A stretch of 36,898 bases of DNA from Treponema sp. (GTDB taxonomy: Bacteria > Spirochaetota > Spirochaetia > Treponematales > Breznakiellaceae): positions 1 through 36,898 of the forward strand of contig JAITNM010000145.1 of the NCBI GenBank assembly GCA_031290475.1, in the 5' to 3' direction. Below are positions 8,171-35,624 of this stretch, in pieces. The notes below the pieces were generated by a model. That model was not told the DNA's origin. It made no database searches and saw only the letters and a program-made list of their open reading frames with translations. Position numbers and translations under genes: made by a program. Each line of letters opens with the position of its first letter. Within the stretch, counting starts at the first letter, position 1.

Positions 8171-8315
8171 TAGGAGTTTGTCGGGCTTTAGCCTATTCCA
8201 ACCCCAAAAACGTGCGTTTAGCACGTTTTTACTTCTCAAACTCCGTAAGGAGCCCATAAATCGGGATTTTTGCGTTAGTTTTGGTACAAAAATCCACAAG
8301 TCCGATAGGCTCCTA
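8171..8315 (+). repeat. 145-bp MITE-like element, copy A
   Basis: Short repeat with inverted ends TAGGAG...CTCCTA; near-identical copies lie at 11805-11949 and 24253-24399. Two lobes can fold. In lobe 1, GGAGTTTG (8173-8180) pairs with CAAACTCC (8237-8244) around a perfect 10-bp hairpin AAAAACGTGC-GTTTA-GCACGTTTTT (8206-8230). In lobe 2, GGAGCC (8249-8254) pairs with GGCTCC (8308-8313) around GGATTTTTG/CAAAAATCC (8264-8272/8287-8295). It encodes no protein of its own that I can support. The central hairpin with flanking A and T runs resembles a bidirectional terminator. It lies in the leader of hsdM, at the border between the restriction cassette and argS. Confidence 0.85.
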
Positions 8316-11804: not shown

Positions 11805-11949
11805 TAGGAGTTTGTCAGGCTTTAGCCCTTCCAACCCCAAAAACGTGCGTTTAGCACGTTTTTTACCTTACAAACTCCCAAAGGAGCCCAATAATCGGGA
11901 TTTTTGCGTTAGTTTTGGTGCAAAAATCCACAAGTTTGAGAGGCTCCTA
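11805..11949 (+). repeat. 145-bp MITE-like element, copy B
   Basis: Same length, inverted ends and two-lobe fold as the copy at 8171-8315. It lies between the convergent genes for the AI-2E permease (+) and PgeF (-). Its right end overlaps the 3' end of pgeF and supplies that gene's last dozen or so codons and its TAA stop (11911-11909). Confidence 0.85.
11839..11864 (+). terminator. Intrinsic terminator-like hairpin within repeat copy B
   Basis: AAAAACGTGC, loop GTTTA, GCACGTTTTTT: a perfect 10-bp stem ending in a T run. It is placed to end transcription of the permease gene and, as the flanks are A-rich on the other side, also to stop minus-strand readthrough from pgeF. Confidence 0.6.
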
Positions 11950-12787
11950 ATAGAGCAACCATCCTGGTGTAACTTTGGGCGCCCTCCCGCCGGAAGGAGC
12001 CGAGCCGTTCATCGGTAAAGGTACAGTCCCGGCAGACGGCGATGTTCCGCACCCCGGCGTTGGCAAGGAGGCGGGCATTGGCGGCTTGCAGGTTGAGGGA
12101 AAAGCCCGGCCCGCCGGGGAGATCGGCCCGTTCGCGTATGACCGGCCCCAGGGGGAACCCGCCGTCTGAGCCACCGAACTCGGCCTCAAAGGAGCGGGCC
12201 CGTTCTTCGTCTACCCGGTAGCAGCAGCCCTGGATACAGGGGCCGAGTACGGCGGCCACTTCTTCCGGCCGGGTATGCCGGCGGGCTTGCATGAGGCCCA
12301 GGGCCTCAAGGACAATGCCGGTACCCTTCCAGCCCGAATGTACGAGGCCCGAAGCGCCGGTCCGGGTGTCGAAGAGGAACACTGGAAGACAATCCGCTAC
12401 GGTTACCGATAGGGTTAATCCGGCGTCAGCACCGGTCATACCATCCGCTTCAGGGCCGTTCCGGGGCGAGAGACGGTCAACTTCAACCACGGTACGGGAA
12501 TGAACCTGGGCGCAGGCGTATACAAGGGCGGGGTCCAGGCCGAGGCTGCGGAAGAGCCGCTCCCGATGGGAATTAGGTTTTTCACCGGAATAGGCATGAA
12601 ACGCAGTTTCATGTTCGATACACGGTGCGGCCTCCGGCCGCACGAGGTTCAGATTAGCCATGCTGCCCGCAGAACGGGAAGAAATGCCGCAAGAGACGCC
12701 GGGAACTTCCCGGCCATCGTAGATAAAGGGAAACCGGGCGAATTGGGGATTAGGGGTGAAATCAAGATTGAAAAAGGAAATGTCCAT
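11909..12787 (-). CDS. pgeF: PgeF/YfiH family protein (laccase-domain, multicopper polyphenol oxidoreductase fold), with repeat-derived segments
   Basis: Member of the YfiH/PgeF family, whose E. coli member removes misincorporated L-Ser from peptidoglycan precursors; other members act on nucleosides. The metal-site residues are present: His in QVHSRTV, Cys in ADCLPV and His in VHSGWKG, followed by GPCIQGCCYRVDE. At 292 residues it exceeds the usual 240-270 for two visible reasons. A palindromic element (12595-12643) codes for VRPEAAPCIEHETAFH, inserted where relatives pass directly from the LNL motif to the helix before RERLF. In addition, the tail after RMVALLG is encoded by the 145-bp repeat. 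The core motifs are intact, so activity may survive. The gene lies 35 bases after the DUF5312-like gene. Confidence 0.88.
   Translation of the reverse strand: MDISFFNLDFTPNPQFARFPFIYDGREVPGVSCGISSRSAGSMANLNLVRPEAAPCIEHETAFHAYSGEKPNSHRERLFRSLGLDPALVYACAQVHSRTVVEVDRLSPRNGPEADGMTGADAGLTLSVTVADCLPVFLFDTRTGASGLVHSGWKGTGIVLEALGLMQARRHTRPEEVAAVLGPCIQGCCYRVDEERARSFEAEFGGSDGGFPLGPVIRERADLPGGPGFSLNLQAANARLLANAGVRNIAVCRDCTFTDERLGSFRREGAQSYTRMVALLGASQTCGFLHQN
12595..12643. repeat. Two-hairpin palindromic element inside pgeF, copy 1
   Basis: Two perfect 8-bp hairpins: CATGAAAC-gca-GTTTCATG (12595-12613) and GTGCGGCC-tcc-GGCCGCAC (12625-12643), joined by a short TTCGAT-containing linker. On the complementary strand the order and linker (ATCGAACATGAAAC) match the intergenic copies at 32409-32461, 33258-33294 and 35575-35624. 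This copy is translated in frame as 16 residues of PgeF. Confidence 0.85.
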
Positions 12788-24252: not shown

Positions 24253-24399
24253 TGGGAGTTTATCGGGCTTTAGCCCAGTTTAACCCCAAAAACGTGCGTT
24301 TAGCACGTTTTTTACCTTGCAAACTCCATAAGGAGCCCATAAATCGGGGATTTTTGCGTCAGTTTTGGTGCAAAAATCCACAAGTCCGACAGGCTCCTA
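24253..24399 (+). repeat. 145-bp MITE-like element, copy C, within the flagellar operon
   Basis: 147-base copy of the element at 8171 and 11805; the left end is slightly changed (TGGGAG), the right end is intact (CTCCTA). The perfect central hairpin is kept (24288-24313). On the transcribed minus strand it reads as a GC-containing 10-bp stem followed by five T, which could reduce transcription into flhA. Confidence 0.85.
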
Positions 24400-30760: not shown

Positions 30761-30784
30761 GGAAAACCGCCCCGGCGGTTTTCC
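30761..30784. repeat. Hairpin in the fliL-fliM gap
   Basis: GGAAAACCGCC, CC, GGCGGTTTTCC: 11 perfect pairs (the innermost would leave a two-base loop, so about 10 form). It ends two bases before the longer hairpin at 30787. Confidence 0.75.
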
Positions 30785-30786
30785 TA

Positions 30787-30827
30787 GAGACTTTTGGTAC
30801 AAAACAAAGTTTTGTACCAAAAGTCTC
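30787..30827. repeat. 19-bp perfect hairpin over the fliL stop codon
   Basis: The arm GAGACTTTTGGTACAAAAC, loop AAA and the exact inverse arm form a 41-base hairpin. On the minus strand its first bases form part of the fliL TGA (30828-30826). The stretch TTTTGGTACAAAA also occurs in lobe 2 of the 145-bp element copy A, suggesting relatedness. Confidence 0.85.
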
Positions 30828-31389: not shown

Positions 31390-31411
31390 AGCAAAACCTC
31401 CGCACTCCTGA

Positions 31412-31443
31412 AGTCCTTCGGACTTCTAGTCCTTCGGACTTCT
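31412..31443. repeat. Tandem 16-bp palindromic repeat in the fliL leader
   Basis: Two adjacent units AGTCCTTCGGACTTCT (31412-31427, 31428-31443). Each contains the hairpin AGTCC-TTC-GGACT; the first extends to GAAGTCC/GGACTTC. They lie about 25-55 bases before the fliL start, upstream of the Shine-Dalgarno. Confidence 0.8.
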
Positions 31444-31661: not shown

Positions 31662-32393
31662 CTAAAGGTGGCCGTCGTCCAGGATGACGATGTCTACCCG
31701 GCGGTTGTAGGACTGGCCTTCGGGGGTATCGTTTCGGCTTACCGGCATGGTGTGGGCAAAGCCCGCTACCTGGAAGCGGTTTTCATTTACCCCGATGTCG
31801 GTAAGGTAATGAAGCACGTTTATGGAACGCTGGGAAGAAAGCTCCCAGTTGGATTCCCAGGGACCGTTGGGGTCCACACCCACATCGTCGGTATGACCTT
31901 CGATACGGACCTTCCGGTTTTTAACATCATCCGATTCCAGGAGGGTCCCCAGCCGGAGCAGTATATCCCGGGTCTGTTCAATGTTTATCCGGGCGCTGGC
32001 GGGGTTGAAAAAGGCATCGGAAGCCAGGGAAATAACCAGGCCCCGTTCGTCGGAGGTAACCTTTACTTTATTTGAACGCATTTCGTTCTGGAAGAGACTT
32101 ACCGCCCGTTTCATGGCGGTTCCCATAACCCTGCCCTTGTCCATTGCAGGCAGGGACATGACGGTGTTCCCCAGATCGGCGCTTTTCCCAGCCGAGAGAG
32201 TATTACCGCCGGTATTGGCTCCCATACCGATATTGGCAAAGGAAGAGATCATAGCTTCCAGTTGAGAAGGGATAATATCGTCGGGGTTGAACAGGGCGAC
32301 AAAGAAACAGAGCATCAAGGTAACCATGTCCGAGTAGGTAACGATCCACTCGCCCCCTGCCCCGCCCGCGTCGGGCTTCTTCTTCTTCGCCAT
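31662..32393 (-). CDS. motB: MotB, flagellar stator protein
   Basis: Peptidoglycan-anchoring stator subunit. A short Lys-rich N-terminus is followed by one membrane helix (SDMVTLMLCFFVALF) with the proton-pathway Asp22 in TYSDMVTLM. The C-terminal OmpA-like domain contains RKVRIEGHTDDVGVDPNGPW and ELSSQRSINVL. 243 residues. AAAGG lies 5 bases before the ATG. It sits after motA with a 66-base gap filled by a two-hairpin element. Its TAG stop begins a short repeat shared with flhB. Confidence 0.95.
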   Translation of the reverse strand: MAKKKKPDAGGAGGEWIVTYSDMVTLMLCFFVALFNPDDIIPSQLEAMISSFANIGMGANTGGNTLSAGKSADLGNTVMSLPAMDKGRVMGTAMKRAVSLFQNEMRSNKVKVTSDERGLVISLASDAFFNPASARINIEQTRDILLRLGTLLESDDVKNRKVRIEGHTDDVGVDPNGPWESNWELSSQRSINVLHYLTDIGVNENRFQVAGFAHTMPVSRNDTPEGQSYNRRVDIVILDDGHL

Positions 32394-32408
32394 TGCAACC
32401 TTTACCTT

Positions 32409-32461
32409 GTGCGGCCATCAGGCCGCACTATTAAATCGAATATGAAACGAAGTTTCATATT
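32409..32461 (+). repeat. Two-hairpin palindromic element, copy 2 (motA-motB gap)
   Basis: GTGCGGCC-ATCA-GGCCGCAC (32409-32428), linker TATTAAATCG, then AATATGAAAC-GAA-GTTTCATATT (32439-32461). The right edge includes bases of the motA TAA stop (32462-32460). The element fills nearly the whole gap. Confidence 0.85.
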
Positions 32462-33242
32462 AGTCCTTCAGAACTTCCGCTTCAACGGACTTGCGGTCCG
32501 CGGGAGTTAAATACGAAAGCAGTTTCATTGCCAGGATACGGGGATTATCCCCCGCCTGGATAGAGAGTACGCCTTCAATTTCCATTTCTTTGACCCTGGA
32601 TTCCGCGCCGTCGAAGCTTTTCAACTTGCCGGCCCAGGGGATCATCATCAGGTTTGCAACCATGGACCCGTACAGCGTGGTGATAAGCGCGACGGCCATG
32701 TTCGGCCCCAGGGCGCTTTTATCTTCCAGGTTTTTCAACATACCGATAAGCCCGATAACCGTACCTAACATTCCCAACCCCGGCGCCAGGGTGCCCCACA
32801 TATTTACTACAGAAATTTTAGCCACATGCCGTTCCTGCATCTGGTTAAGCTCGGTTTCCATCAGATTACGGATAACTTCCGCGTCCGTTCCGTCAACCAC
32901 AAGGCGCAGTCCCTTTTTCATAAATTCATCGTCCAGGTCTTCCAATTCTTCTTCCAGCGCCAGAAGTCCTTCACGGCGGGCCTTTTCGGACATGGACATG
33001 AGCTTGGTGATGAGCCCCTTCTCGTTGAGCTGGGGGGTCTTCATGGTAAGGCCGATGGTGCCGAATATACCCAGCGCGTCGGACATACTACCAAAGGTAA
33101 ACAGGCCAAAGTACGACCCGGCCACAACGATGAGTACCGAGGGAATGTCAACATAGGTAAGGACTGAGTTACCCCCGGTCATGATCCCCATTAACACCAT
33201 GCCAAAACATCCGACCAATCCAATAATGGTTGATAGATTCAT
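32460..33242 (-). CDS. motA: MotA, flagellar stator protein
   Basis: Ion-channel stator subunit, 260 residues, four membrane helices. The conserved segments GTLAPGLGMLGTVIGLIGML (with the functionally important Pro) and YGSMVANLMMIPWAGKLKS are present, as is the cytoplasmic loop between helices 2 and 3 with charged residues. AGAGG lies 7 bases before the ATG. It pairs with motB downstream. Confidence 0.96.
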   Translation of the reverse strand: MNLSTIIGLVGCFGMVLMGIMTGGNSVLTYVDIPSVLIVVAGSYFGLFTFGSMSDALGIFGTIGLTMKTPQLNEKGLITKLMSMSEKARREGLLALEEELEDLDDEFMKKGLRLVVDGTDAEVIRNLMETELNQMQERHVAKISVVNMWGTLAPGLGMLGTVIGLIGMLKNLEDKSALGPNMAVALITTLYGSMVANLMMIPWAGKLKSFDGAESRVKEMEIEGVLSIQAGDNPRILAMKLLSYLTPADRKSVEAEVLKD

Positions 33243-33257
33243 GCCTAACCTCTATTC

Positions 33258-33294
33258 TGTGCGGCTTCTAGCCGCACACTTAAACCGAACATGC
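33258..33294 (+). repeat. Two-hairpin palindromic element, copy 3, truncated (flbD-motA gap)
   Basis: TGTGCGGC-TTCTA-GCCGCACA (33258-33278), then the linker TTAAACCGAACATG. The second hairpin is missing; the element ends directly at the flbD stop codon. Confidence 0.75.
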
Positions 33295-35073: not shown

Positions 35074-35556
35074 TTAGAAGGAATTATCGGACCGCAGGTC
35101 CGCAACTGTTGTTTTTAACGGTTCAAAAACTTTGATAACCTGTTCCCAGGAATAGTAATTCCCGTTCACCAGTACCTGGGGTACGCCTCCGCCCCGGGTC
35201 ACCGCGTTCACGGTACCTTGAATAAGATTTTCACCCTCGGTGAGTTCCACCGCCTTTCCCAACGCCGAAGCAGCTTCGCTGCCCTGGATCATATTGGTAA
35301 GCCGGTTGAAGTCATTGGCCATACTGGTCATCTGATCCAAGGTTGAAAACTGGGCCATCTGGGCTATGAATTCCTTATCCTCCATGGGAGCGGTAGGATC
35401 CTGATAAGAGAGCTGGGTGATCAAAAGTTTTAAAAAATCGTCTTTTCCCAAATTCTGCTGGGGATTTTTCCCCTGGTTAATTTTACTGTTGTGTTCTTTT
35501 ACGGTCTGGGTAAGATCAAACATATCCTGTGCGCTAAGAACCGATTCCAATGCCAT
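35074..35556 (-). CDS. flgD: FlgD, hook-capping protein
   Basis: Hook scaffold protein needed for FlgE assembly, 160 residues. The N-terminal FlgD domain contains LGKDDFLKLLITQLSYQDPT and APMEDKEFIAQMAQFSTLDQ. The C-terminal part is short (about 65 residues), as in other treponemes, without the full FLG_D/Ig-like domains of enterobacteria. AGGAG lies 8 bases before the ATG. Confidence 0.95.
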   Translation of the reverse strand: MALESVLSAQDMFDLTQTVKEHNSKINQGKNPQQNLGKDDFLKLLITQLSYQDPTAPMEDKEFIAQMAQFSTLDQMTSMANDFNRLTNMIQGSEAASALGKAVELTEGENLIQGTVNAVTRGGGVPQVLVNGNYYSWEQVIKVFEPLKTTVADLRSDNSF

Positions 35557-35574
35557 AATAATAACTCCTAACTA

Positions 35575-35624
35575 AGCGGCGATAGCCGCTACGTTAAATC
35601 GAACATTAACACGAAGTGTTAATG
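35575..35624 (+). repeat. Two-hairpin palindromic element, copy 4 (fliK-flgD gap)
   Basis: AGCGGC-GATA-GCCGCT (35575-35590), linker ACGTTAAATCGAA, CATTAACAC-GAA-GTGTTAATG (35604-35624). Both stems differ from the other copies by paired changes that keep the helices, while the linker is conserved. Confidence 0.8.

Follow-up and report, generated by a model that had tools for sequence, protein, structure and literature searches.

A two-hairpin repeat family at start codons of Breznakiellaceae genes, with one copy in frame within pgeF

Spirochaetes of the family Breznakiellaceae carry short repeats, each made of two small hairpins followed by a Shine-Dalgarno motif and an ATG, which lie mainly at the start codons of genes. 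In a Treponema sp. genome, one copy lies antisense within pgeF, the gene for the peptidoglycan editing factor, and adds 21 codons in frame. With its in-frame insertion, pgeF adds a further example of a phenomenon already known, while greater interest attaches to the nucleotide-precise placement of the family at start codons. The genome sequences document the family and its structure, its position at start codons, the insertion in frame and the existence of both filled and empty sites. The explanation favoured here, which is judged probable, is that of a non-autonomous mobile hairpin element that would insert between a Shine-Dalgarno sequence and a start codon and supply a replacement site, the pgeF copy being an antisense insertion at an internal ATG.

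The window, that is the whole stretch of 36,898 nucleotides that was analysed, is contig C291 of a 3.2-Mb, 306-contig, 87%-complete assembly, referred to below as the own genome (G000). Copies were searched with three covariance models: R1 and R2 included the pgeF copy, while R3 was built from other genomes only. The features of the window are collected in Table 1.

Table 1. Element copies in the window, parts of the pgeF copy and the pgeF gene
Feature	Position	Strand	Remarks
Two-hairpin element copy in pgeF	12595..12662	+ (sense; antisense to pgeF)	R3: 50.4 bits, E 2.2e-10; also R1/R2
Hairpin A, CATGAAAC GCA GTTTCATG	12595..12613	+	Perfect 8-bp stem, 3-nt loop; covarying helix 1
Linker TTCGATACACG (family TTCGRTTTAACN)	12614..12624	+	11 nt; minus strand reads CGTGTATCGAA
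Hairpin B, GTGCGGCC TCC GGCCGCAC	12625..12643	+	Perfect 8-bp stem, 3-nt loop; covarying helix 2
Right end GAGGTTCAGATTAGCCATG	12644..12662	+	Sequence; degenerate form of the family's Shine-Dalgarno and ATG end
Left flank TAGGCATG	12591..12598	+	Imperfect direct repeat of 12655-12662 (TAGCCATG)
Net insertion in pgeF, 21 codons ANLNLVRPEAAPCIEHETAFH, residues 44-64	~12596..12658	-	Absent from 47/47 orthologues
pgeF (YlmD/YfiH, peptidoglycan editing factor), 292 aa, open frame	11909..12787	-	Pfam Cu-oxidase_4, E 1.6e-42
Element copy ending at the motB ATG (motB 31662-32393)	32391..32459	-	R3 E 7e-17; Pfam MotB
Element copy, hairpin A largely deleted, ending at the motA ATG (motA 32460-33242)	33240..33293	-	R3 E 7.5e-8; Pfam MotA; polymorphic site
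Element copy ending at the flgD start (flgD 35074-35556)	35557..35624	-	R3 E 1.4e-11; Pfam FlgD

Architecture and covariation of the element family

The unit is normally ~65 bp long, a length not divisible by three, and the family covariance model comprises 69 positions with two separate 8-bp hairpins. On the strand opposite pgeF, the order is hairpin A (CATGAAAC..GTTTCATG and variants), a TTCGRTTTAA linker, hairpin B (GTGCGGCC..GGCCGCAC and variants) and the right end, AGAGGTTATC-ATG. In this right end, ~13 nt with AGAGG are followed by TTATC-ATG, that is, a Shine-Dalgarno motif and an ATG. The core motif TTAAAYCGAACAT has 27 matches in the own genome versus 2 for a reversed control, and the repeats far exceed chance.

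Both helices covary. In the 79 copies of the first searches, 185 two-sided changes were counted versus 38 in shuffles, with 94.6% of cells paired and all slid controls far lower. The result was repeated in 92 copies from other genomes, which gave 196 two-sided changes versus 40 in shuffles and 96.5% paired, again far above slid controls. The arms of hairpin A differ considerably between subfamilies (CATGGAGG, CAAGAGGC, AATTAACAC and GCCGAAC), with compensating changes. Units of ~65-72 bp also occur in tandem, up to four per array. One array (L124:1547-1752; G000 C258:3146-3417) consists of three strong units and a weak fourth of the AATTAACAC type before a start codon, and its loops differ slightly between copies.

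Unlike a MITE (non-autonomous DNA transposon), the element has no terminal inverted repeats, as its ends, hairpin A on one side and the Shine-Dalgarno/ATG motif on the other, are not mutual inverted copies. It matches no Rfam family, a scan of the window having returned only two tRNAs above the gathering score. A conserved leader peptide read in the sense direction (SD-ATG AAA CTT CGT ...) was considered and dropped on inspection: the hairpin A ATG is not constant across subfamilies, and the frame is broken by differing loop lengths.

Other repeats were noted alongside. Three identical 25-nt perfect hairpins, AAAAACGTGCGTTTAGCACGTTTTT, at 8206-8230, 11839-11863 and 24288-24312 form another palindromic, terminator-like repeat family. 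Downstream of a fliL-like gene, a 19-bp perfect stem with a 3-nt loop (30787-30827, GAGACTTTTGGTACAAAAC...) adjoins a 10-bp hairpin at 30761-30784. In the own genome, two unrelated loci (L013 and L021 at 1501; C32:9433 and C177:19284) share TGA-TTAAACCGAATATAATTAACCAC after an apparent stop, apparently another repeat.

Distribution

The own genome holds ~57 copies (R1, E <= 1e-3), a result that bears out the sequence-only reading, in which a genome-wide search for the repeat had been proposed. The element is carried by 128 of 200 genomes of the host family, with copy numbers ranging from none to dozens in relatives. In a sample of 394 genomes of the order, every genome listed as positive belongs to the host family, and none was seen elsewhere in the order. 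The named PgeF relatives are Treponema and Spirochaetaceae MAGs in GTDB. Within its order, the element appears confined to one family of mainly termite-gut spirochaetes, taken to be the Breznakiellaceae, a gut origin being suggested by the names of the MAGs. Breznakiellaceae is the group harbouring most termite-gut spirochaetes (PMC13067680). In the literature searched, which was not exhaustive, neither the element family nor a start-codon insertion with a supplied Shine-Dalgarno sequence was found described.

The copy in pgeF

Two perfect 8-bp hairpins inside an open, apparently functional pgeF had been picked out by the sequence-only reading, and both stems and the Pfam match confirm this. 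The ATCGAA linker that it described is present, within a linker that really spans 11 nt. The insert had been put at exactly 16 residues or 48 bp; this is the span of the hairpins and linker, whereas the element continues to the end of its right part and the net gain relative to 47 orthologues is 63 bp, or 21 residues. None of these 47 PgeF orthologues of the host family (47-68% identity) has ANLNLVRPEAAPCIEHETAFH, in agreement with the alignment check suggested beforehand, and in them AG(S/N/D)M runs straight into xYS. LNL, previously taken for a conserved anchor, is absent there from the family's orthologues and is part of the element's right end and of the insert.

At the DNA level, R3 gave no element match in five loci with orthologous pgeF, while it found the pgeF copy of the window. 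An empty site (L035) reads AGT ATG GCG TAT TCC, where the window reads AGC ATG GCT AAT CTG ... TTT CAT GCC TAT TCC. A clean target-site duplication was rejected for pgeF, as the flank repeats TAGGCATG and TAGCCATG are 64 bp apart versus a net gain of 63 bp, and because of this difference the exact junctions are uncertain by ~1 bp. The ATG in the right end of this copy opens a frame of only 20 codons.

The active-site residues H96, C133 and H150 (His-Cys-His) are invariant. An AlphaFold2 model of PgeF built with 44 sequences has a mean pLDDT of 87.8, with residues 46-68 below 50 and most of the rest above 90, and its fold is that of YlmD/YfiH (Foldseek to 6t0y). The 21 inserted residues probably form a flexible, disordered loop and leave the YlmD/YfiH fold intact, in line with the surface loop for which a structure model had been proposed, and pgeF with the insert looks functional. 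The modified PgeF is presumably made and active. In seven other genomes (G015, G066, G067, G068, G136, G176 and G222), the pgeF match contains one internal TGA, which suggests decay or an edge effect of the match.

The 21 residues might instead be an old functional segment of PgeF that was lost in relatives, the hairpins then being due to chance or coding constraint. Only the open frame speaks for this reading. It is refuted by the absence of the segment from all 47 orthologues and by the fit of the DNA to a family model built without the own genome; the segment is also predicted to be disordered. Practically no credence is left to it.

Other intragenic copies

A 609-codon gene for a comM/yifB-type ATPase (Mg_chelatase, E 1.9e-71) contains, antisense and in frame, a second copy of the own genome (C259:4853-4922; R3, E 2.4e-9). 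None was found in three loci with orthologous comM, an absence that rests on the DNA match and not on protein alignment because the length of the ComM loop varies among relatives. The end of its peptide, SIEHDTKYHA, is in the same frame as CIEHETAFHA in PgeF. Among relatives, a degenerate tandem pair lies antisense in a 935-codon open frame resembling two joined sensor histidine kinases (G006 C5, L116:1501-1633). It is read in another frame than the pgeF and comM copies, which themselves share the frame of the 3' half only (IEHET/DT..HA). The tandem copies of G006 may mark the place where two genes were fused.

Few copies are intragenic (2 of 57 in the own genome and 1 of 114 in relatives). 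A 48-base, frame-preserving size had been thought to let the element spread into genes; this does not hold for a unit of ~65 bp, whose length from CATG to ATG is divisible by three in only 18 of 95 relatives' copies. In each of the three intragenic cases, the element runs antisense to the gene. Stop codons were rejected as the cause of this bias, since 41 of 57 copies of the own genome are open in the sense direction and 46 of 57 in the antisense direction.

Placement at start codons

The three further copies that had been matched in the window belong to the same family by R3. Describing them as intergenic undersold them: copies sit exactly at start codons and carry a Shine-Dalgarno motif. In relatives, 90 of 114 copies (79%) end at a start codon in the sense direction versus 10% at random positions; 9 have an oppositely directed start at the end with hairpin A, 5 of them showing starts of both kinds, and 20 copies lack either. 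A start was scored when the frame that it opened ran for 80 codons or more or was still open at the end of the locus, an approximate assignment for which the null is 10-12%. Similarly, the 57 copies of the own genome comprise 29 with a sense-side start, 14 with an antisense-side start, 2 with both and 16 with neither (null 12%). Of 95 copies from relatives, 68 have a Shine-Dalgarno-like motif on the left side of hairpin A (null 9%), and 81 have one ahead of the right end.

Besides motB, motA and flgD in the window, a further copy precedes rplF, assigned by its N-terminus MSRIGKIPV. Genes on the antisense side include csrA (MLILSRK), an Rrf2 regulator, dtd and pcnB, and for csrA, Rrf2 and dtd the Pfam domain starts at residue 1-3 when counted from the antisense-side start. 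At these starts, hairpin A itself contains both motifs, AGGAG (or a variant) on its 5' arm and the ATG on its 3' arm.

The leader copies of the window fold as stable hairpins (z ~ -3.3 to -4.5), the motA copy retaining hairpin B only, and in the fold of the motB leader the Shine-Dalgarno sequence is mostly unpaired. These predicted leader hairpins are likely to affect translation. Just before the start of a fliL-like gene, small repeated hairpins at 31410-31440 (AGTCCGAAGGACT / GAAGTCCTTCGGACTTC) may represent a different start-proximal hairpin.

Such leaders could also be a conserved cis-regulatory 5'-UTR RNA, acting in translation control or mRNA processing and spread by ordinary duplication and recombination, in which case the element would not be mobile and the pgeF copy would be a stray. 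The strong covariation, by which pairing is kept at the RNA level, the stability of the window's leader hairpins and the contact with the Shine-Dalgarno sequence and ATG are all in its favour, but the downstream genes are unrelated (motA, motB, flgD, rplF, csrA, dtd, pcnB), copies occur in coding frames and in tandem arrays, copy number varies between relatives from 0 to dozens, and one site differs in presence or absence within one genus. This alternative is considered unlikely, though it deserves more weight than the other rivals.

Evidence for movement and the possible mover

The site that differs is that of motA. In most relatives it is empty, and nearly all of these have GAGGAGTA followed by the start codon 11-27 nt on. 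It is occupied in five (the own genome, L301, L304, L307 and L309), where the old GAGGAGTA or GAGGAATA is kept 61-98 nt upstream and the element's AGAGG or a similar motif stands just before the ATG. Occupancy is polymorphic within the genera g70 (G168 empty; G169 and G173 occupied) and g55 (G093 and G096 empty; G095 occupied). The placement at start codons may reflect targeting or else strong selection among insertions made at random; some targeting is favoured because different subfamilies have repeatedly and independently occupied the motA start. Dispersed copies with both occupied and empty orthologous sites, as expected of MITEs, were found at motA and pgeF. These observations suggest that the element moves as DNA.

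The left and right flanks of copies resemble each other more than those of shuffled pairs, both in relatives (5.99 versus 4.66 +/- 0.13, 0/300) and in the own genome (4.89 versus 4.12 +/- 0.16, 0/300). In part, these flank repeats reflect the likeness of both ends to Shine-Dalgarno sequences, and for this reason they do not count as clean target-site duplications.

REP and PATE elements are small hairpins in tandem or paired arrangement, and insertion by Y1 transposases makes no target duplication. The small hairpins and tandem arrangement of the present family recall these elements and would fit a REP- or PATE-like element mobilized by a Y1 (IS200/IS605, RAYT) transposase. Its repeated flanks do not, and over 200 genomes the presence of Y1_Tnp, the one transposase domain examined for association, was independent of that of the element (76/52/47/25 genomes, odds ratio 0.78, p 0.45). 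Moreover, no Y1 transposase was detected in the element-rich own genome, an 87%-complete assembly. The lack of association over 200 genomes disfavours Y1/IS605/RAYT transposases as the mover, and this explanation is regarded as improbable. An enzyme that could mobilize the element was not found, which counts against the mobile-element reading.

For the mobile hairpin element favoured here, insertion would typically take place between a gene's Shine-Dalgarno sequence and its start codon. The old Shine-Dalgarno sequence would be left on the far side of the element and a new one placed at normal spacing before the ATG, and because of this new sequence the gene would stay translatable, the supplied Shine-Dalgarno presumably being functional. 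In a reverse insertion, the outer end of hairpin A (AGGAG...CTC-ATG) would supply the start region. In pgeF, a copy would have entered an internal CATG antisense, small length differences giving a net 63 bp that are read as a tolerated 21-residue loop.

It is an even call whether this represents a new kind of bacterial mobile element that targets the translation start site. The ends of such an element would mimic the junction of Shine-Dalgarno sequence and start, a gene would be re-equipped in either orientation, each insertion would create a new target and lead to tandem arrays, and occasional hits on internal ATGs would lead to in-frame protein insertions. If true, repeated DNA could multiply in compact genomes rich in operons and yet leave the genes unsilenced, by landing at start codons with its own ribosome-binding site. 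In a major group of termite-gut symbionts, dozens of genes, among them flagellar, ribosomal and regulatory ones, would have had their 5' leaders remodelled at once, and palindromic DNA would have become protein sequence in a non-rickettsial case.

Comparison with known systems

Integron attC sites, known from treponeme integrons, are likewise hairpin repeats between genes. They were rejected by inspection, the element having two separate hairpins, no R/L box architecture and dispersed housekeeping neighbours. REP/BIME and PATE-type repeats share with the element short hairpins, many copies and tandem arrangement, but the element differs from them in its repeated flanks, its location at start codons and its lack of Y1 association.

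The enterobacterial MITEs ERIC/IRU (RU-1), YPAL (RU-2) and RU-3 are also small non-autonomous repeats with structured RNA and occasional in-frame fusion, ERIC-type repeats being occasionally fused in frame with genes (PMC2759123). Unlike the element, ERIC, YPAL and RU-3 are 103-168 bp long and generally intergenic, and in the literature searched neither start-codon precision nor a supplied Shine-Dalgarno sequence was found described for them.

Rickettsia palindromic elements (RPEs), which measure 105-146 bp and have one long stem-loop flanked by terminal inverted repeats, occur as peptide-coding in-frame fusions in many genes of Rickettsia (PMC2229807, PMC10969869). As with RPEs and the protein-coding palindromes of Wolbachia, repeated palindromic DNA is here read in frame in conserved, apparently functional genes that tolerate the inserts. 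This likeness is what could make the element a member or direct homologue of the RPEs. However, the spirochaete element is ~65 bp long, with two small hairpins and no terminal inverted repeats, and this length and architecture refute membership. It lies mainly at start codons, with a Shine-Dalgarno sequence at its end, and intragenic copies are rare, pgeF and comM holding the few in frame; no conserved peptide is encoded, and the hosts belong to different phyla, RPEs being found in Rickettsiales. Direct kinship is accordingly given very little probability. The sequence-only reading had seen in pgeF the same situation as in Rickettsia, and this stands only as far as translation goes; in length, architecture, encoded peptide and genomic habit the two differ.
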